Assembly (NCBI GenBank): GCA_902500785.1
Contig: CABVRW010000029.1
Span: forward strand, 8,061-44,880
DNA length: 36,820 bases
Reading direction: 5' to 3'
Origin: an uncultured Nitrospira sp.
Lineage (GTDB): Bacteria > Nitrospirota > Nitrospiria > Nitrospirales > Nitrospiraceae
The notes below the pieces were generated by a model that did not search any database, was not told the DNA's origin, and saw only the letters and a list, made by a program, of their open reading frames with translations. Numbering within the stretch: the first letter of the stretch is position 1; every line of letters starts with the position of its first letter. Below, piece after piece: positions 28,790 to 36,157 of this stretch. A program made the translations under genes and the position numbers.

Positions 28790-28818
28790 TTGACAGGTGA
28801 GACGAAGAATTGTAGGGT
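28790..28818 (+). promoter_or_regulatory. Sigma-70 promoter of tRNA-Thr
   Basis: TTGACA (28790-28795), a 17-nt spacer and TAGGGT (28813-28818), ending 49 nt before the tRNA. The -35 is perfect and the spacing ideal; the -10 matches moderately. Confidence 0.6.
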
Positions 28819-28867
28819 TCTGCCCCTTGGATACACGCGAGATCATGTCGAAGACATGCTCCCGAGG

Positions 28868-28943
28868 GCTGGCGTAGCTCAATTGGCAGAGCAGCGGTTT
28901 TGTAAACCGCAGGTTGAAGGTTCGATTCCTTTCGCCAGCTCCA
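28868..28943 (+). tRNA. tRNA-Thr (anticodon TGT)
   Basis: A 76-nt cloverleaf. The acceptor stem GCTGGCG/CGCCAGC pairs perfectly, and the D-arm has TAGCTCAATTGGCAGAGCA. The anticodon stem is GCGGT/ACCGC with loop TTTGTAA, giving anticodon TGT, which reads ACA. The T-arm has GGTTCGATTCC, followed by discriminator T and an encoded CCA at 941-943 of the same block. Its 3' part is the likely integration target of the adjacent integrase, whose stop codon lies antisense inside it. Confidence 0.95.
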
Positions 28944-30135
28944 CAACTTCCACTGACGAATCAACCACTTCGCGGCTTACAGAGCCACTGCTCTCCCCTC
29001 GTAATTCTGCGAGTGTAACCGTGAGTGTAACCGTCTGACGTTCAAAGTACGCAGAGAGCGAACGCGCCGCGTGTTCGAGGTCCCGTTCGTTCACAATGTT
29101 GTACCGGTCAAACACACTCCGCGTCTTATGGCCGGAGATGGACATGGCCACCTTCTCAGGCACTCCTGCTCGCACCATGTTCCGCACAGCAGTACGGCGG
29201 AAGTCATGTGGGATTCTACCTGCCCACACCAGATGCTTTTTTTTCTCGTCTTGCACCATCCCGCCAAGCCCGACAGTCTCGCACGCCTTCCGCCAAGAGT
29301 GCTTCAAACTCTGTAGGCGATTTCCTCCACGGTGGCAGATCCAGGGGCAACCCGGCCATTTAAGGTCGCAGCGAGCCTTCCAAGCCAGCAGGACTCGGTA
29401 GAGGTCCCCTGTGAGGTAGAGAACACGGGGAGTATTGGTTTTGGTGTCCTGAGCCTGGAGAAACAGTTTCCCTTCCGTCCAGTTGATTTGCCGCCATTGG
29501 AGCGAGCACACCTCCCCCATTCGCATTCCGCTGTAGTATGCGATCGTAGCCGCGACCTGGGCATAGTCCGGTAAGGCGCCCCGAAGCGCGAGGAAATCCT
29601 CGTGCTCGAAGAATCCTGATCGAATGTTGTATTCCTTCAATTGAGGAATATGAGGAACCCGAGCGACGAGCTGGGGCGTCTGTTGAAAGCCCATCCGGAA
29701 CATCCGTTTGAGGAATCCAGTCTCCCGGTTGATGGTGCCATTTGCCGCGCCCTGTGCTTGACGTTTGACGATATAGGCTTTGATGCGTTCCGTCGTGATG
29801 GTCGATACCCGCATCTTTCGAAAGTACGGTTCCAAGTGGTGCTGAAACTCGTTGATCCGCCTTCCGGTCTTTCGTTTGTTCAATTCGTAGTCTTGTCTGA
29901 CGAGTGCAGCGAGATCCTCATAGCGGATCCGGTCGATGTTGGGTCCGCGATACGCCCCCGCTGCTATCTCCCCTTCTTTGATTTTTAGAAGCCGTTTGGC
30001 TTGATCCTTATCGCTGGTCCTCGTGCTTTCTTGGATTGGTCGGCCCTCAATGTAATATTTCATCCAATATGGTCCCTGTTCTTCCAAAGTCCCCGTCGTC
30101 GGGTCGCGCTTTTTGCGACGATATATCATTCCCAT
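28879..30135 (-). CDS. int: Tyrosine recombinase/integrase at tRNA-Thr
   Basis: A 418-aa site-specific recombinase. A SAM-like core-binding domain (about 65-165) precedes the catalytic domain. Active-site residues are all present: R205 (SGMRMGE), K232, H310 and R313 (HDFRR), H336 (SGHKTR) and Y345 (FDRYNI). The ATG at 30135 has GGGAGG upstream. The last ~21 codons are the complement of tRNA-Thr, and the stop is 12 nt inside the tRNA, so the C-terminal tail is supplied by the host site. A tandem 12-bp repeat encodes a TVTLTVTL-type stretch near the C-terminus. It appears intact. Confidence 0.92.
   Translation of the reverse strand: MGMIYRRKKRDPTTGTLEEQGPYWMKYYIEGRPIQESTRTSDKDQAKRLLKIKEGEIAAGAYRGPNIDRIRYEDLAALVRQDYELNKRKTGRRINEFQHHLEPYFRKMRVSTITTERIKAYIVKRQAQGAANGTINRETGFLKRMFRMGFQQTPQLVARVPHIPQLKEYNIRSGFFEHEDFLALRGALPDYAQVAATIAYYSGMRMGEVCSLQWRQINWTEGKLFLQAQDTKTNTPRVLYLTGDLYRVLLAWKARCDLKWPGCPWICHRGGNRLQSLKHSWRKACETVGLGGMVQDEKKKHLVWAGRIPHDFRRTAVRNMVRAGVPEKVAMSISGHKTRSVFDRYNIVNERDLEHAARSLSAYFERQTVTLTVTLAELRGESSGSVSREVVDSSVEVVELAKGIEPSTCGLQNRCSAN
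29011..29034. repeat. Tandem 12-bp repeat near attachment site
   Basis: GAGTGTAACCGT occurs twice in tandem (29011-29022 and 29023-29034), inside the 3' end of int. An 11-base copy, AGTGTAACCGT, lies at 33456-33466, near the start of the broken rep gene. These may be recombinase arm sites or a simple in-frame duplication (codons for a repeated Thr-Val-Thr-Leu). Confidence 0.6.
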
Positions 30136-30325
30136 GATGCCCCTCCCTTTTGTTGTTTTCGATGAACCGATCCATATCGTAAATGTCGAACAGAACACGC
30201 CGGCCTTGTCGTACACAGGGCAGCTTGCTGGTCCAATTGAGATGCCGTACTGCCCATTGGCTGACTCCGAGATATCGAGCCGCCTCTCTCACCGAATACA
30301 ACCGTTTGAATACTTCCTCTGACAT
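30047..30325 (-). CDS. Small HTH (MerR/excisionase-type) protein
   Basis: A 92-aa protein starting at the ATG at 30325. An N-terminal winged-helix pattern of the excisionase/MerR type (LYSVREAARYLGVSQWAVRHL, residues about 7-27) is followed by a wing (PCVRQGRRVLFDIYDMDRFI) and a charged tail. The tail overlaps the 5' end of int by 89 nt in another frame. The position directly before int and the small size fit Xis, the directionality factor for excision, though plain transcriptional control of int is possible. The SD is a G-run 8 nt upstream. Confidence 0.75.
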   Translation of the reverse strand: MSEEVFKRLYSVREAARYLGVSQWAVRHLNWTSKLPCVRQGRRVLFDIYDMDRFIENNKREGHHGNDISSQKARPDDGDFGRTGTILDEILH

Positions 30326-30383
30326 TTGATTCACCCCCTTTCGTTTAGAACTGGTTATTCCACACTGACGACCGATCACCTTG

Positions 30384-30683
30384 CTAGGATTTTTGTTTGG
30401 ATTTCTTTAGATCAGGCGAATTCATTATCACTCCAAGACCCTTTAACGCCTCCCCGGTCATCTTCTGCCATCCCTTCATGGCCTGATCCAGCTTTCCTGC
30501 TTTTGCCTGTTCCAACATCGTCGCCATGTGTTCGAGAATCGGTTGCTGTTCGGCTAATAAATCCCGAATGATTTCGGCTCGCGGCTTTTCCATAGCAGCG
30601 GATACACGCGAAATGGTGTTGTAGAGGTCCGTGGGTAAAGACAATAGAACTCGATGCGGTGTGTTTTTAGGCTTTGGACTCAT
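30384..30683 (-). CDS. Small ribbon-helix-helix-like protein
   Basis: A 99-aa protein. The N-terminus resembles a ribbon-helix-helix DNA-binding unit (HRVLLSLPTDLYNTISRVS, then PRAEIIRDLLAEQ). A helical tail (about 45-99) is rich in Met, Lys and Gln. The ATG at 30683 has GGAGGG. It has its own strong promoter, overlapped by a palindrome (30709-30731), so autoregulation is plausible. It sits 58 nt before the HTH gene on the same strand. No close family name is recognised. Confidence 0.65.
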   Translation of the reverse strand: MSPKPKNTPHRVLLSLPTDLYNTISRVSAAMEKPRAEIIRDLLAEQQPILEHMATMLEQAKAGKLDQAMKGWQKMTGEALKGLGVIMNSPDLKKSKQKS

Positions 30684-30708
30684 CTATGGCCCTCCGTTAT
30701 ATTGGTGA

Positions 30709-30738
30709 GTATATAGCGAATGGATATATACGTGTCAA
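30709..30738 (-). promoter_or_regulatory. Strong sigma-70 promoter with palindromic operator
   Basis: On the minus strand there is a TTGACA (30733-30738), a 17-nt spacer, then TATATA (30710-30715). A perfect inverted repeat, GTATATA-N9-TATATAC (30709-30731), covers the -10 and most of the spacer, which is a typical repressor site. It drives the RHH-like, HTH and int genes. Confidence 0.7.
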
Positions 30739-30840
30739 GCGGCCCAGAAGCGTAATCGACGGAAGTATGTACGAATGTCTCGTGCTACTGAAATGGGCCA
30801 TTTCGCCCGGCGCTTCAATAGGCACCGCTTGACAGGTATA
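30727..30840. repeat. 16-bp inverted repeat in divergent promoter region
   Basis: The left arm 30727-30742 and the right arm 30825-30840 are reverse complements at 15 of 16 positions, 82 bp apart. Each arm includes a TTGACA. They place mirror-image -35 elements for leftward and rightward transcription. Confidence 0.7.
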
Positions 30841-30857
30841 CATCGGTGGCCTAGCCT
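30829..30857 (+). promoter_or_regulatory. Candidate rightward promoter for HEPN-like gene
   Basis: TTGACA (30829-30834), a 17-nt spacer and TAGCCT (30852-30857), 32 nt before the ATG at 30890. The -35 is perfect and the -10 weak. It is the mirror of the leftward promoter's -35. Confidence 0.45.
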
Positions 30858-30889
30858 AGCCACAACCTACTTGCTGCTTGGTTAATTTT

Positions 30890-31360
30890 ATGGAAGCGAA
30901 GGAAGCAGAAAGGACGATCAATCGCCTAAATATCGCAAGGGGTGATGTCGATCGATGCGTTAAGTTTTTAGAGGCTGCCAATCACCATGCGCCGCGGAGT
31001 ATCGAATATGAGGCGCTAGTTGCATGTGCAATAATCAACTATGCAAAACCGTTCTCCCAAAACGAACGACCGGGGTCGTCGAAAGCACTGCCTAGTGTTC
31101 CTCAATCGGTTATCAGGGACTATTCGGTGCAGGAACTTGAACTGCACGACCGCATTATAAATCGACGCAATAAAGCTATTGCACATTCCGAGTGGAATGA
31201 ATTTCAGACTTCGGTAGACTGTGACACTAAAATGATTGACAGGCAGCGTTACTTTATCTATCCAGAATTTCTTGACATAAAGCCGTTTACATCGCTGGCC
31301 AAGAAGCTACTCGATCAGTTGCATAACGTGGTCGCGGATCTTGTGCTTGGCAAATCCTAG
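30890..31360 (+). CDS. Hypothetical protein with HEPN-type RxxxxxH motif
   Basis: A 156-aa mainly helical protein starting at the ATG at 30890. A TTG 12 nt upstream opens the longer frame but has no SD. Near residue 100 it has RNKAIAH, which fits the HEPN ribonuclease signature R-x(4-6)-H with a polar residue after Arg. It is preceded by a long helix (LELHDRIINRR). HEPN proteins occur in toxin-antitoxin and phage-defence systems. No nucleotidyltransferase antitoxin is visible next to it. GC is low here: one 60-base line inside it counts 38%, against 72% in fliI, which supports foreign origin. The function is inference only. Confidence 0.5.
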   Translation: MEAKEAERTINRLNIARGDVDRCVKFLEAANHHAPRSIEYEALVACAIINYAKPFSQNERPGSSKALPSVPQSVIRDYSVQELELHDRIINRRNKAIAHSEWNEFQTSVDCDTKMIDRQRYFIYPEFLDIKPFTSLAKKLLDQLHNVVADLVLGKS

Positions 31361-31447
31361 CAACCGGTTTCGATTAATGCTGCCAATTCTCATCGATAGA
31401 TTGCCCCTTGCATTAGCTCGGAAGGATCAAGCTGCTGAGGAGAATTA

Positions 31448-32338
31448 ATGAAGCATTTTCTGCTTGCTTTCTTTGTCGCTCTAACCGTGACTGACGCCGC
31501 CGCCGAGCCTATAGTCGATATGATCGGCAGCAAGACCTATTGGCTGGCGATGGATTGGGAAAATGCAGAGAAGTCAGAAATATGGCAGATGAGCGGTTGG
31601 AGTGTATTTGAAGGTAAGCAAGATAACGATCAGACATTTACGAAGGTACGCCCAGCAAACATTGACGGGAAACAATTCACGGCATATCTGCTAGTCATTA
31701 AAACGCCCAAACGGCGAGATGCGTTGTCGCTCTCTTCAATTGAGCTTTTAGCCGACGAATGTGAACAAGTTGGCGACTGGCTTGCAGGGAAACTTGGTGA
31801 CCCTCAACGCGTGGTTGATGGAAGTTACAAGTACGATTTAATTGCTGCTGGGAATACCGTGGAAATCATCGACAAGACGTTCCAATGGGACATCGGTTCG
31901 ACTCGCGCTACCTTTTCATGTGCAGGTATCAAGCCCAGAGCGAAGGACCTAACGAGGGAGAAGAACCGTTCAGTTGGTATTTTGAGCTTCGGCAATAAAG
32001 CCACCGAGCGGGAGGTTAAGCGGCTCTTCGGCTTGCGCTGCACCCAATGGTACAAGACTATTGGGCTAGATCAGGCACCAAAAAATGGAGAAGACCTGGC
32101 CGTTATTATCGATGAGAACAAGAATCGTGTTCTGAAAGCGAACAAGGATCCGCTCCCTGGCCAACACCGAATCACTGAGGACGTAATAGAGGTCAAGACA
32201 ACGGCAAACGGCACTATGATTGAATTTTCTATCAACCGCCATACCGGAGCCTTCAACGGGAAATCCCTCATTCCCAAAGGAGGAGTCAATATGTTTGGTC
32301 AATGCGAAAAAATAGAGGCAGGCGAGCGTAAGTTTTAA
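31448..32338 (+). CDS. Secreted protein of unknown function
   Basis: A 296-aa protein with a clear signal peptide (MKHFLLAFFVALTVTDAAAEP, cleavage probably after Ala19 or Ala-Glu). There are four Cys in the mature part and no TM segment. The sequence is mixed alpha/beta with no family I recognise. The ATG has GAGGAG 6 nt upstream. It shares the AT-rich composition of the element. The following 18-bp palindrome (32358-32375) may terminate it. It could be an element cargo gene. Confidence 0.7.
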   Translation: MKHFLLAFFVALTVTDAAAEPIVDMIGSKTYWLAMDWENAEKSEIWQMSGWSVFEGKQDNDQTFTKVRPANIDGKQFTAYLLVIKTPKRRDALSLSSIELLADECEQVGDWLAGKLGDPQRVVDGSYKYDLIAAGNTVEIIDKTFQWDIGSTRATFSCAGIKPRAKDLTREKNRSVGILSFGNKATEREVKRLFGLRCTQWYKTIGLDQAPKNGEDLAVIIDENKNRVLKANKDPLPGQHRITEDVIEVKTTANGTMIEFSINRHTGAFNGKSLIPKGGVNMFGQCEKIEAGERKF

Positions 32339-32357
32339 TTCAGCACAATGGACGATT

Positions 32358-32416
32358 TATTAGGTGCACCTAATATCAATAATTACGGGGGAGTCTTACG
32401 ACCCCCCCACTCCCCC
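32358..32416. repeat. 18-bp perfect palindrome and G/C hairpin
   Basis: TATTAGGTGCACCTAATA (32358-32375) is a perfect palindrome without a loop. It is followed by a hairpin with an 8-bp stem (32387-32394/32409-32416), whose G-run can also pair with a second C-run. The site lies between the convergent secreted-protein gene and the rep remnant. It could be a bidirectional terminator, an operator or part of a rolling-circle origin. Confidence 0.6.
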
Positions 32417-32457
32417 ATGGATCACCCGCGCTTCAGCAAGCGCCGGATTCGTTTCCA

Positions 32458-33447
32458 TCAGGAGCTGACATTAACAGGCACAGCTGTAGACGCTTCGGTA
32501 CTCCATCGCATTGAGGCATCCTCAAAACCGGCCATCCACCCATAGGTGCCCGATCCACCCATCCATTCCGTAAGACGGCAGCAGACGCCGACACGACGCA
32601 AGGCCTCTTGCCGAATGAGGGAGTACATTTTCCTTTCCACGTCCTTTGCCATTCGGTCCAACACAAGTTCATGCTTTTACGTAGGCACCTTGACGCCTAA
32701 GGAACAAAAGTATCGGTGCTCTTCAAATTCACGCGGCATGTTGTCAAAATCCTTGCTGATGTATTTCGACAGGTAGCGGGCAAGTTTCACCGGCGAACTT
32801 CCGGGACGAGGCCCTCTGACGTTCACTTGTCCCTGACCGTTCTCGACAATCTCGTACCAGCATCGTCGCAAGAGCCGAACATCCTGAATCCTTTCATGGC
32901 TAAATGCGGATGCAGCGCCCCACGCGGTTTGCCGTTCCAGGACCGCTACATAAGGCATGGAACAGTCGGACCGTGAGAGTGCCCGCCATAACCGTTCCAG
33001 ATCGTGTAAGACACGCTCCCGATCCTCCACATTTGTTCGATAGGTCAAGGTCACGAGGTGGTCGGCTCCGATGGTCAGGCATTTCTTCCGAATTGTACTT
33101 TTGGCCCGGCCTCGTGCCCGAGCCTCGTTCATCTTTCTATTCCGCGATGCGCCTTTCTCTCCTCTCTTACCTTGCATCGGGTCTAACCTACCCCAGGACA
33201 TTTCAACCCACTGTTTCCCAAAATCATGAATCGTAATGGACCAGACATTGCCCTGTGGTTGTGGTGTGGTGTGTGGTCGAGTGTGATCGCTGAGAAATGT
33301 CATCCTGTCAAGTTTAGGAATGGCCGCTCGCGCGGCTCCCGTGAGCGGGTGGCTTCCGCCACCCCGCGCACCGGCATCACCGGCCGAGCGGGACAGCCTC
33401 GATTGCTGCGTTGGTTCTTTTTCGTTCCTGTCCACGTTCGACCTCAT
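32458..33447 (-). pseudogene. Rolling-circle replication initiator (HUH Rep), decayed
   Basis: The frame from the ATG at 33447 matches phage/plasmid Rep proteins: an AKSTIRKKCLTIGADHLVTLTYR block, then RLWRALSR, YVAVLERQ, a RLLRRCWYEI block, and the catalytic-type LARYLSKYISK. Two defects are visible. The metal-binding HxH segment is out of frame: ALHPHLAMKGF is encoded in another frame at 32886-32918, so an insertion and a deletion cancel. An in-frame TAA at 32677-32679 then cuts off about 72 residues that continue in the same frame (KHELVLDRMAKDVERKMYSL) to 32458. The first ~48 residues may not be translated. No element can use this Rep as it stands. Confidence 0.8.
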
Positions 33448-33686
33448 CGCAAAAAAGTGTAACCGTAACGGCCCTTTTTACCCTTTTGAATGACAACTCC
33501 ACGCAACATGGCACTATCGTCTAACCCAATGGTGGATCAGGCTCTTCTATGTACTTTGGTGGTGTGCAGAGCGGGGGAGAAATTGCTTCAGGACTGGTTT
33601 GAAAACCGCCGGTTGAGCATCGAACGCTCGCTTGAAGGCAGGTCGGGCTTGGGCGCGGGCGACATAGGCAAATATCCCTTTCTGCC
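33448..33686. other. Intergenic, likely element edge
   Basis: No gene is supported in these 239 bp. It contains one copy of AGTGTAACCGT (33456-33466) like the tandem repeat in int. A tRNA-like patch around 33590-33620 does not fold as a tRNA, and no copy of the tRNA-Thr 3' end was found. Confidence 0.4.
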
Positions 33687-34121
33687 CTACCGTTGGGACC
33701 GGGATGGGTCTGAGACATCGCGCAACACGGCCCCGGATGTCTGCGGGTCCAGTCCATCAATGACTAGGTCCCCTATGGAGACGATCCCCACCAGGCGTTT
33801 CGTTCTCGACAGAACGGGCAACCGCCGGATCTGCTTGTCGGCCATGATTTCCGCGGCCACTTCCGAGTCGTCGTCCTCAAAACAGTAGACTAGCCCTCCC
33901 GTCATTGCCTCACTCACCCGGGCTTGAACGGGATCACGACCGATTGCCATGACGCGGAGCACTAGATCCCGGTCCGTGACCATTCCAAGTAATTTTTCTC
34001 CATCGCAGACTGGAATGGCTCCCACATCAAGGTCCATCATTTTACGAGCGGCATCAGCAGCGGTGGCATTGGGCGAAATAATTTCCACGCTGGGTGTCAT
34101 GAGTTCTTTAAGTAGCGGCAT
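33687..34121 (-). CDS. CBS-domain pair protein
   Basis: A 144-aa protein made of two CBS domains (about 8-60 and 72-128) with the usual motifs AIPVCDGEKLLGMVTDRDLV and RRLPVLSRTKRLVGIVSIGDLV. Such stand-alone Bateman modules bind adenine nucleotides and regulate partner proteins; the partner is unknown here. The ATG at 34121 has AGGAGG 6 nt upstream, so the GTG at 34127 is less likely. It is not obviously related to the mobile element. Confidence 0.88.
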   Translation of the reverse strand: MPLLKELMTPSVEIISPNATAADAARKMMDLDVGAIPVCDGEKLLGMVTDRDLVLRVMAIGRDPVQARVSEAMTGGLVYCFEDDDSEVAAEIMADKQIRRLPVLSRTKRLVGIVSIGDLVIDGLDPQTSGAVLRDVSDPSRSQR

Positions 34122-34537
34122 AGGCACCCTCCTGGTCGAGTTCCTGCGGTTTGGTTAGGGTATTCACAATCTACTATCTGCCAGAGGGAAGTCCACTGGG
34201 TGAATCCCTTGAGCGGAGAGCCGTGAGAACTGAAGGACAGGTCCAGAGCCCCTTTACAAGGTTATTCTGACGACCGCCTTCTTTCATCACAGACCGACCC
34301 TTCATGTTTCTCACCTAAAGTGGCTATGCAATATCCACCACAGGTAATTAGGTAATCTCTAGGCTCGCGATTTGTGTGGAAACAATGACGAGATTTAATG
34401 TATCCACATTCGTCCGCGGAGTGATGGGCACCTAGGTTGGGGGCTCGTGTTCACAAATTAGTCCATCGATTGCAGTCTTCGAAGATCCAGACGCACTAGA
34501 ACACTCAAATGCACTGGAGCCTCTGAGAGGTCACACT
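34122..34537. other. Intergenic region before SGNH gene
   Basis: About 410 bp without a gene on either strand. A possible promoter (TTGTGT, 16 nt, TTTAAT) lies near 34371-34398 on the plus strand, together with a TGTGGA/TCCACA inverted pair around 34375-34408. Neither is strong. Confidence 0.3.
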
Positions 34538-36157
34538 TTGGCTTTTTTGAACGACCAGATGCGGAAAACCTTGCAGGTTTATGGCATGGTGGGTGCGTGT
34601 CTGCTGATGGGAGCCGGCGCCATGGTGACGGCCTATGACATCGCCTCCTTTTTAACTTACGCCGGCCCAGCAACTCCTTTCGCGGTCAGGTCTGGGGCGA
34701 CTTACCTCCTGCTGATTGGGGGAGTATTACCCATTATCGCTTCCCTCTTTGTGTTTGCCGCCTATCAAACCCAACAAGCGAACTCGGTACATAGGTCCAT
34801 CGTGGCCACCTGGTCGATGCCATTCTCCCTGTTGCTTGTTTGCGTAATCGGCTTCTTATGGCTCGTTTACTATCCTATACCTCGGCATAGCCATCACATT
34901 GATAAGTTTTCGGCCCTCGCTCTCGTGACCGGGCTCTGGGGCGCGTGGTACGTGCGTTCTCCTAAGAGCCTGCAGCGACTCCTATGCGGACGATCTTACG
35001 GTCTTCTTAAAGTCGCGTTTATCAATTTAATGATCTTCCTTTGTCTTGGCGAGACCGCAATGCGGTTGGCCGATCCTATCCTCGGCAGAAGTGGTTTGTT
35101 CGGCGGGAAGCACACGCCGGCAGATCTCCGTCCCCATGCCGAAGTCAACGGGTCGATTGAGCGTTCAAATTCGCAGGGCTTCCGGGATAAGGAACGGGTT
35201 CTTGAGAAACCGGACACCTATACTAGAGTCCTCGCAGTTGGCGATTCGTTTACATGGGGCGCGGGTGTGAGCTATGACCAAGCGTTCGTGACGTTACTTG
35301 AGCGGCAGTTACAAGCCCAGCTTCCACGCGTTGAACTGATAAACCAGGGCGTGCCAGGATGGGAACCTCCTCAAGAGCTCCACCTGCTCCAACATCATGG
35401 GATTCATTTTCAGCCAGACCTCGTGGTGCTAAATTTCTTCGTGGGAAACGATATCGTTCGTCGACGAGGAGCCGAACGGGAGCAATCGTTAGTTGTAGCA
35501 GGGCAGAGCTATTATGTGCATGAGAATGGGAACTGGGTCCACGACAACCTCGGTCCTGAGCGGTGGTTCCTCTATCACAACATAAATTATCTTTTCCGTG
35601 TCGGCATGTTATCACTACGCCCCGTCCTTCAAGCCAAATCGAGGAGACACGAATACTCCCCGCTCAATAGACCTCGACAGGAATATTTGCAGGAAATGGA
35701 CGAACGCTCTGACATATATCTGCGCGAATATCCGCCCTCCGTCAAATCGCATTGGGACCAGACCTGGTCCACCCTTCAGGAGCTGAAGGAGTTCCTCTTG
35801 GTGCAGCACGTGCGATTGTTAATCGTGCTCATTCCCGATCAAATACAGCTGGACGGCGATTTACGGGAAGAACTCCTCGAACAAGTCCAGTTTTCTCCAT
35901 CTCGCTACGACTTTGAGAAGCCTCAGACCTTATTGATCAGGTGGTGTAGAGAGAATCGTGTCTCATGTTTCGATTTGCTTCCTGCCTTCAAAAAACACCC
36001 CGAGCCATCCAGTTTGTATCTTAAAAATGACCTCCATTGGAGCGCTACCGGTCATGCGCTTGCCGCGGAAGTCGTATTTCCGGTGGTCAAAAACCAGCTC
36101 CTAGATTTGATGTCTCAAGCCTCTGAGGTCCTCCCCTTCGAGACAGTTCTGAACTGA
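34538..36157 (+). CDS. Multi-TM SGNH/GDSL hydrolase-like protein
   Basis: A 539-aa protein. The N-terminal part has five TM segments (about 14-34, 50-76, 92-112, 123-139, 155-175). A C-terminal SGNH hydrolase domain follows: block I GDSFTWG with Ser237, block II GVPGW, block III GND at 303-305, and the terminal D498-x-H500 in DLHWSATGH. Such proteins often modify surface polysaccharides by acyl removal or transfer; the substrate is unknown. A TTG start at 34538 has GAGAGG 7 nt upstream, and an ATG 7 codons later is possible. The last 11 codons and stop lie in the inverted repeat of the IS remnant, so the natural C-terminus may be lost, though the catalytic domain is complete. Confidence 0.8.
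   Translation: MAFLNDQMRKTLQVYGMVGACLLMGAGAMVTAYDIASFLTYAGPATPFAVRSGATYLLLIGGVLPIIASLFVFAAYQTQQANSVHRSIVATWSMPFSLLLVCVIGFLWLVYYPIPRHSHHIDKFSALALVTGLWGAWYVRSPKSLQRLLCGRSYGLLKVAFINLMIFLCLGETAMRLADPILGRSGLFGGKHTPADLRPHAEVNGSIERSNSQGFRDKERVLEKPDTYTRVLAVGDSFTWGAGVSYDQAFVTLLERQLQAQLPRVELINQGVPGWEPPQELHLLQHHGIHFQPDLVVLNFFVGNDIVRRRGAEREQSLVVAGQSYYVHENGNWVHDNLGPERWFLYHNINYLFRVGMLSLRPVLQAKSRRHEYSPLNRPRQEYLQEMDERSDIYLREYPPSVKSHWDQTWSTLQELKEFLLVQHVRLLIVLIPDQIQLDGDLREELLEQVQFSPSRYDFEKPQTLLIRWCRENRVSCFDLLPAFKKHPEPSSLYLKNDLHWSATGHALAAEVVFPVVKNQLLDLMSQASEVLPFETVLN

Follow-up and report, generated by a model that had tools for sequence, protein, structure and literature searches.

Divergent back-to-back sigma-70 promoters are two promoters that lie in one intergenic region and face away from each other. 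For an operon that is repressed by its own ribbon-helix-helix (RHH) protein, the closest described system is MobC of plasmid RA3, an RHH protein that represses its own synthesis via an imperfect palindrome between the putative -35 and -10 (PMC4175270). At the level of whole elements, the closest are the P4-like phage satellites, small integrated elements with conserved genes and with anti-phage hotspots (PMC9122126).

The locus considered here lies in a stretch of 36,820 nt from an uncultured Nitrospira sp. (hereafter the window), where the 206-nt intergenic region between a leftward gene (30384-30683) and a rightward gene (30890-31360) contains an inverted repeat. We consider it probable that this region holds two independent back-to-back sigma-70-type promoters at a core/cargo junction, with an RHH-autorepressed integration operon on one side and a separately promoted cargo gene on the other. 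The features are as follows:

28868-28943, + strand: tRNA-Thr(TGT), integration site (ARAGORN)
28899-28943, + strand: left attachment site, the 3' part of tRNA-Thr(TGT); recurs in the right ends of relatives
28879-30216, - strand: tyrosine integrase (int), 3' end overlapping the tRNA (PF00589 E=1.1e-16; phrog_1 E=5e-50)
30047-30325, - strand: HTH_17 protein, probable excisionase (xis); longer ORF 30047-30379 (PF12728 E=1.7e-8; phrog_66 excisionase E=2.4e-8)
30384-30683, - strand: RHH protein of CopG type, candidate autorepressor, encoded first in the leftward operon (RHH_1)
30685-30701, - strand: O2, operator-like TATAACGGAGGGCCATA with the Shine-Dalgarno of the RHH gene embedded (17/17 loci, same register)
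30710-30715, - strand: leftward -10 TATATA (from aligned promoters; 17-nt spacer; alternative TATACT at 19)
30712-30728, - strand: O1, palindromic operator-like TATATC-N5-GCTATA between -35 and -10 (17/17 loci)
30723-30742, - strand: left arm of the inverted repeat, with the leftward -35 TTGACA (30733-30738) and half of O1
30753-30824, no strand: probable core/cargo junction, holding GAAATGGGCCATTTC (in BLAST, the homology to relatives stops at 30700-30752)
30825-30844, + strand: right arm of the inverted repeat, with the rightward -35 TTGACA (30829-30834)
30852-30857, + strand: rightward -10 TAGCCT (17-nt spacer; TTGACA-N11-GTGGCCTAGCCT recurs in other genomes)
30890-31360, + strand: cargo gene, 'HEPN-like', with RNKAIAH motif; alternative start TTG at 30878 (AbiU2 E=0.055, below cut-off)
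31448-32338, + strand: second cargo gene (no hit in Pfam, PHROGs, PADLOC or NCBIfam)
32677-33447, - strand: rolling-circle Rep, in the right part of the conserved core (32387-33615) (phrog_3419 E=1.3e-41)
33590-33615, + strand: remnant of the right attachment site (alignment with the tRNA end)

Core and cargo of the Nitrospira element family

Nitrospira are important nitrifiers, and among the papers listed by literature searches no description of the elements to which this locus belongs was recognised. The window copy (28944-33615) and ten relatives (L025-L034) form a family of small integrative elements with int-xis-RHH on the left, the rolling-circle Rep on the right and cargo in between. 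The window copy is integrated at tRNA-Thr and, according to ARAGORN, several other copies lie at or near a tRNA-Thr as well. The 3' part of the tRNA recurs with 80-92% identity at the right end in eight of the ten related genus elements, six of which were aligned. Unlike those six, the window copy loses its likeness to the tRNA end at about 33615, and this element may therefore be immobile.

A search of 197 genomes with the RHH protein found 14 copies in 11 genomes, which are the window's own and 13 in ten others, and when named genomes were scanned, 11 loci emerged, including Candidatus Nitrospira defluvii (FP929003.1). The records bear the name Nitrospira or Nitrospiraceae for ten of these 11, and 'uncultured Nitrosospira' for the other. 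Thirteen longer stretches were compared with the window, ten of them elements in seven genomes of the window's genus and three from other genera (L035-L037). All of int, xis, RHH and Rep are present in 10/13, namely in the ten genus elements, where the xis protein is 62-88% identical in every case. Of six window proteins, the three loci from other genera yielded just RHH; xis is absent from them, and L037 ends with its contig beside the RHH gene, so that int and xis could not be seen there. Next after the RHH gene, these three loci have a gene for a protein of about 360 aa (HGIDTVQCAYYL), which is cut by the contig end in L037; the product matched no Pfam family (L035), and PHROGs gave no match for L035 and a weak match of unknown function for L036. 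L035 also carries a serine recombinase.

Homology at the DNA level divides the element into parts. On the left it runs from 28800-28899 to 30700-30752 at 74-86% identity in all ten genus elements, with weaker aligned similarity perhaps to about 30800. It resumes on the right at 32382-32425, again in all ten, with 83-85% identity in the main piece, and ends at 33613-33615 in eight elements and at 33378 in L031 and L034; in L030 and L031 the right core part contains one additional, secondary hit apiece. Between these parts, from 30753 to 32381, BLAST found no DNA shared with the ten elements. Since conserved sequence flanks this unshared stretch, the element has an exchangeable slot with conserved core to its left and right, and by this homology the left arm of the repeat is part of the core and the right arm of the cargo slot. 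The core homology ends before the right arm.

The slot can carry defence-type genes. When ten slot proteins from five of the ten elements were compared with PADLOC, five proteins from three elements matched at E up to 0.01 (PDC-M71A, PDC-M71B, PD-T4-2_A, a TIR effector and a partial Avs4 match), and the two cargo proteins of the window had no match at E up to 1. The first of these contains an RNKAIAH motif that we take to be of HEPN type, and its gene is without a clear Shine-Dalgarno. Folded alone, this protein gave an unreliable and unusable model (pLDDT 39). It has matches in 6 of the 197 genomes, its own included; the five others share 27-37% identity over at most 65 residues, and none is in a genome of the genus or in one that bears the RHH gene. 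Pattern-based scans of viral contigs and plasmids found no relatives either, and none of the 13 related loci keeps the gene. The product of the second cargo gene is, judged by eye, probably exported.

The two probable promoters and the operator-like sites

The earlier note had described two outward-facing promoter-like sites, the left one for the int side and the right one for the 'HEPN-like' gene, which one protein could co-regulate. The two sites are supported, the left one serving RHH-xis-int, and the shared control is not supported. Both are of sigma-70 type, TTGACA-17-TATATA on the left and TTGACA-17-TAGCCT on the right. A scan of 28800-34600 with a fixed E. coli-type promoter rule listed neither of them, because the hexamers TATATA and TAGCCT fail its -10 rule; it found two promoters vs 4.5 expected in shuffles. 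In the whole genome the pattern CTTGACA-N5..25-TANNNT has 65 matches, a count into which four -35 sites enter twice. Spacers of 17 or 18 nt account for 47 of them, compared with about 6 expected if all 21 spacings were equally frequent. When CTTGACA was replaced by its reversed form ACAGTTC, a hand count gave 2/34 matches with such a spacer. The total is not raised (65 vs 58 in a reversed-pattern control) and the spacing alone is skewed. Because of this skew, CTTGACA can be taken as a genuine -35 in this genome. Both promoters are probably real. When the -10 was fixed as TAGCCT, five of eight genome matches had a spacer of 17 (reversed control: 9 matches).

The left promoter is well conserved. 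Its TTGAC and O1 are kept in 17/17 loci, including those of other genera, and the -10 of the relatives reads TATAAA, TATAAG, TATATA or TATATG at a spacer of 16-18 nt. The 17 loci are the window, the 13 loci from the search of 197 genomes and three further ones from the named-genome scan, and they comprise 15 distinct 75-nt promoters, with 11 distinct O1 sequences besides that of the window. The O1 consensus is TATA[G/T/A]C-N5-G[A/C]TATA, with halves symmetric in 5 or 6 of 6 positions, and the pattern occurs at a single place in the whole 3.9-Mb genome. A second palindrome, O2, of the form TATAAC-GGAGG-GCTATA with the Shine-Dalgarno of the RHH gene inside, is found at the same place in the window and the 16 relatives; 11 of the 17 loci have the exact palindrome pattern, and the window and five others are off by one or two bases.

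The protein most naturally expected to bind O1 and O2 is the RHH protein. O1 persists in L035-L037, which share just the RHH gene with the window, and this ties the site to the RHH protein. All 11 family members match RHH_1, with a best E of 2.5e-6, and the window copy (E=0.0018) falls below the Pfam cut-off. Foldseek with the model of the RHH protein returned nothing at E up to 0.001 (RHH-type yiiF at E 4.3, Arc at E 9.8), and a profile search of solved structures gave no RHH protein and instead helical proteins such as designed PPR repeats. A pattern-based scan of viral contigs found no relatives of the protein. In the mechanism that we propose, the left promoter, as part of the tRNA-Thr element core, would drive RHH-xis-int, and the RHH protein would most likely repress this operon, its own, by binding O1 between the -35 and -10 and O2 over the Shine-Dalgarno. 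Repression via both sites would then limit integration and excision.

The right promoter resembles a recurrent type. TTGACA-N11-GTGGCCTAGCCT occurs 23 times in 11 of the 197 genomes, ahead of varied genes (reversed-pattern control: 0), and 16 of the 23 occurrences are in four genomes of one genus from another family. Since the pattern is found in other genomes, no copying of the left arm is needed to explain the right promoter. It would rather have arrived with the exchangeable cargo and would drive the 'HEPN-like' gene independently. A related observation is that a conserved promoter-like TTGACAGG[T/C]-N8-GTGGCCTAGCCT is present in 3-5 copies in each of those four genomes (L084-L105), before unrelated genes, and this set could be a regulon.

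Possible origins of the inverted repeat

The earlier note was correct in that arms of 16 nt (30727-30742 / 30825-30840) are reverse complements at 15/16 positions, lie exactly 82 nt apart and each hold an outward-facing TTGACA. The repeat extends to arms of 20 nt with 18/20 identical positions. This value was reached in none of 2000 dinucleotide shuffles of the 206-nt intergenic region (maximum 16), nor, with the left arm fixed, in any of 300 shuffles of its 200 nt upstream (maximum 15). The shared -35 makes some of this match predictable: half of each arm, its first 10 nt, is identical between the two and reads CCGCTTGACA, which includes that -35. The remaining 10 nt match at 8/10 positions, an unusual degree of likeness: among 1275 pairings of promoter-like sites in the genome, two reach it, one of them being the present pair. 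Past the 20th nucleotide the arms are no longer similar, and the two promoters have different -10 regions. Between the arms lies a perfect palindrome, GAAATGGGCCATTTC, at 30790-30804, and in three relatives of other genera (L019-L021) a hairpin sequence resembling CCCCCGT...ACGGGGG stands, judged by eye, at a similar position; it is shorter in L021.

When each of the 16 relatives was examined for a second, inverted version of its left arm within 200 nt, none was found; the best matches are 9-12 of 20, within the shuffle range. TGTCAA occurs within 700 nt in one of them (L082, at -397).

The 8/10 match beyond the common 10 nt covers half of O1 and could imply a shared operator, with the RHH protein or another one binding both arms and co-repressing the integration operon and the cargo gene, perhaps by looping, much as the earlier note proposed. 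Read in the O1 register, the right arm is TACATC-N5-CCTAGC, which is one half-site with a mismatch. The half TACATC is fairly rare (155 of 73630 positions reach a half-site match with a matrix trained on a mixture of O1 and O2 sites), but with the same matrix the two halves score 6.0 and -5.1, so that the second half-site is missing. A symmetric O1 matrix places this register at rank 77 of 36804 window positions, yet with a negative score of -1.3 vs 22.6 for O1 and 14.4 for O2. The two promoters thus do not carry the same operator, the O1 pattern has just one place in the genome, and the arrangement is not conserved in related elements, all 16 of which are without an inverted arm within 200 nt. 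Binding of one protein to both arms, and looping between them, therefore seem unlikely, although weak binding at the right arm may occur. A bolder form of this reading, in which the RHH protein acts as master regulator of a satellite-like Nitrospira family that seems not to have been described before and here also reaches the cargo promoter via the right-arm half-operator, we regard as about equally unlikely. If true, integration and the 'HEPN-like' gene would be released together.

The 18/20 match and its absence from 2000 shuffles would equally suit a right arm that is an inverted copy of the left one. Against such a duplicated promoter, the likeness stops after 20 nt at differing -10 hexamers (TATATA vs TAGCCT), the surroundings of the right -10 fit the pattern from other genomes, and the right arm lies in cargo, with no inverted arm within 200 nt in any of the 16 relatives; we judge this origin very improbable. 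Arms of 20 nt that are inverted and 82 nt apart could also bound an invertible segment or a small transposable unit (MITE). Flipping the 82-nt middle would leave both promoters outward and unchanged, relatives possess the left promoter without the right arm, and no target duplication was seen by eye at the arm ends. An invertible switch and a MITE are both at odds with the first two of these points, and we give them hardly any credence. Nor would such an inversion change which gene is transcribed, the promoters being situated in and outside the arms with an outward direction. A two-way genetic switch, which the earlier note had suggested, finds no support in a left arm that belongs to the core and a right arm that belongs to the cargo and is missing from 16/16 relatives.

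Two independent promoters thus remain the preferred explanation of the repeat. On this explanation the likeness of the arms comes from the common -35 context CCGCTTGACA present in each. What matches beyond it, at 8/10 positions, is best read as coincidence or as the vestige of a half-operator, given that there is no second half-site and O1 occurs at one genome place. A striking inverted repeat can then arise simply from two unrelated promoters that share a strong -35. Here it marks where, in a Nitrospira mobile element family, the fixed core gives way to exchangeable cargo that is sometimes of defence type. The conserved RHH gene with O1 and O2 offers a clean, testable operator candidate for integration control, and the element family and this control region are a more useful by-product than the repeat itself.

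Comparison with known systems

Compared with divergent sigma-70 promoters in general, the window pair differs in that it consists of one core and one cargo promoter, and because of this its pairing is not conserved.

As in phage satellites of the P4/PICI type, the element has an integrase with attachment-site repeats, the right site being degraded in the window and the repeat present in eight of the ten genus relatives. It also has its own replication gene, the rolling-circle Rep (phrog_3419 E=1.3e-41), which scores just under the cut-off against PF23343 (E=9.7e-6). No packaging or capsid-remodelling gene or helper phage was recognised with the six element proteins in Pfam and PHROGs, the one weak terminase-small-subunit match being that of the HTH_17 protein (E 0.00096). 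Like the P4-like satellites described in PMC9122126, the window element is small and integrated and has an exchangeable slot able to hold defence genes. Unlike them it carries a rolling-circle Rep and an RHH regulator, and the two are likened here by their layout.

The control region comes closest to the autorepressed RHH operons of the MobC/CopG type. MobC of RA3 is a conjugation accessory protein (PMC4175270), whereas the window operon is xis-int; the window also has a second operator-like site, O2, over the Shine-Dalgarno, and binding is here predicted. The ribbon-helix-helix domain is present, with the window copy below the cut-off, and a palindrome, O1, overlaps the operon's own promoter in 17/17 loci. 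As with MobC (PMC4175270), the RHH gene stands first in an operon on a mobile element, and the palindrome lies between the -35 and the -10.
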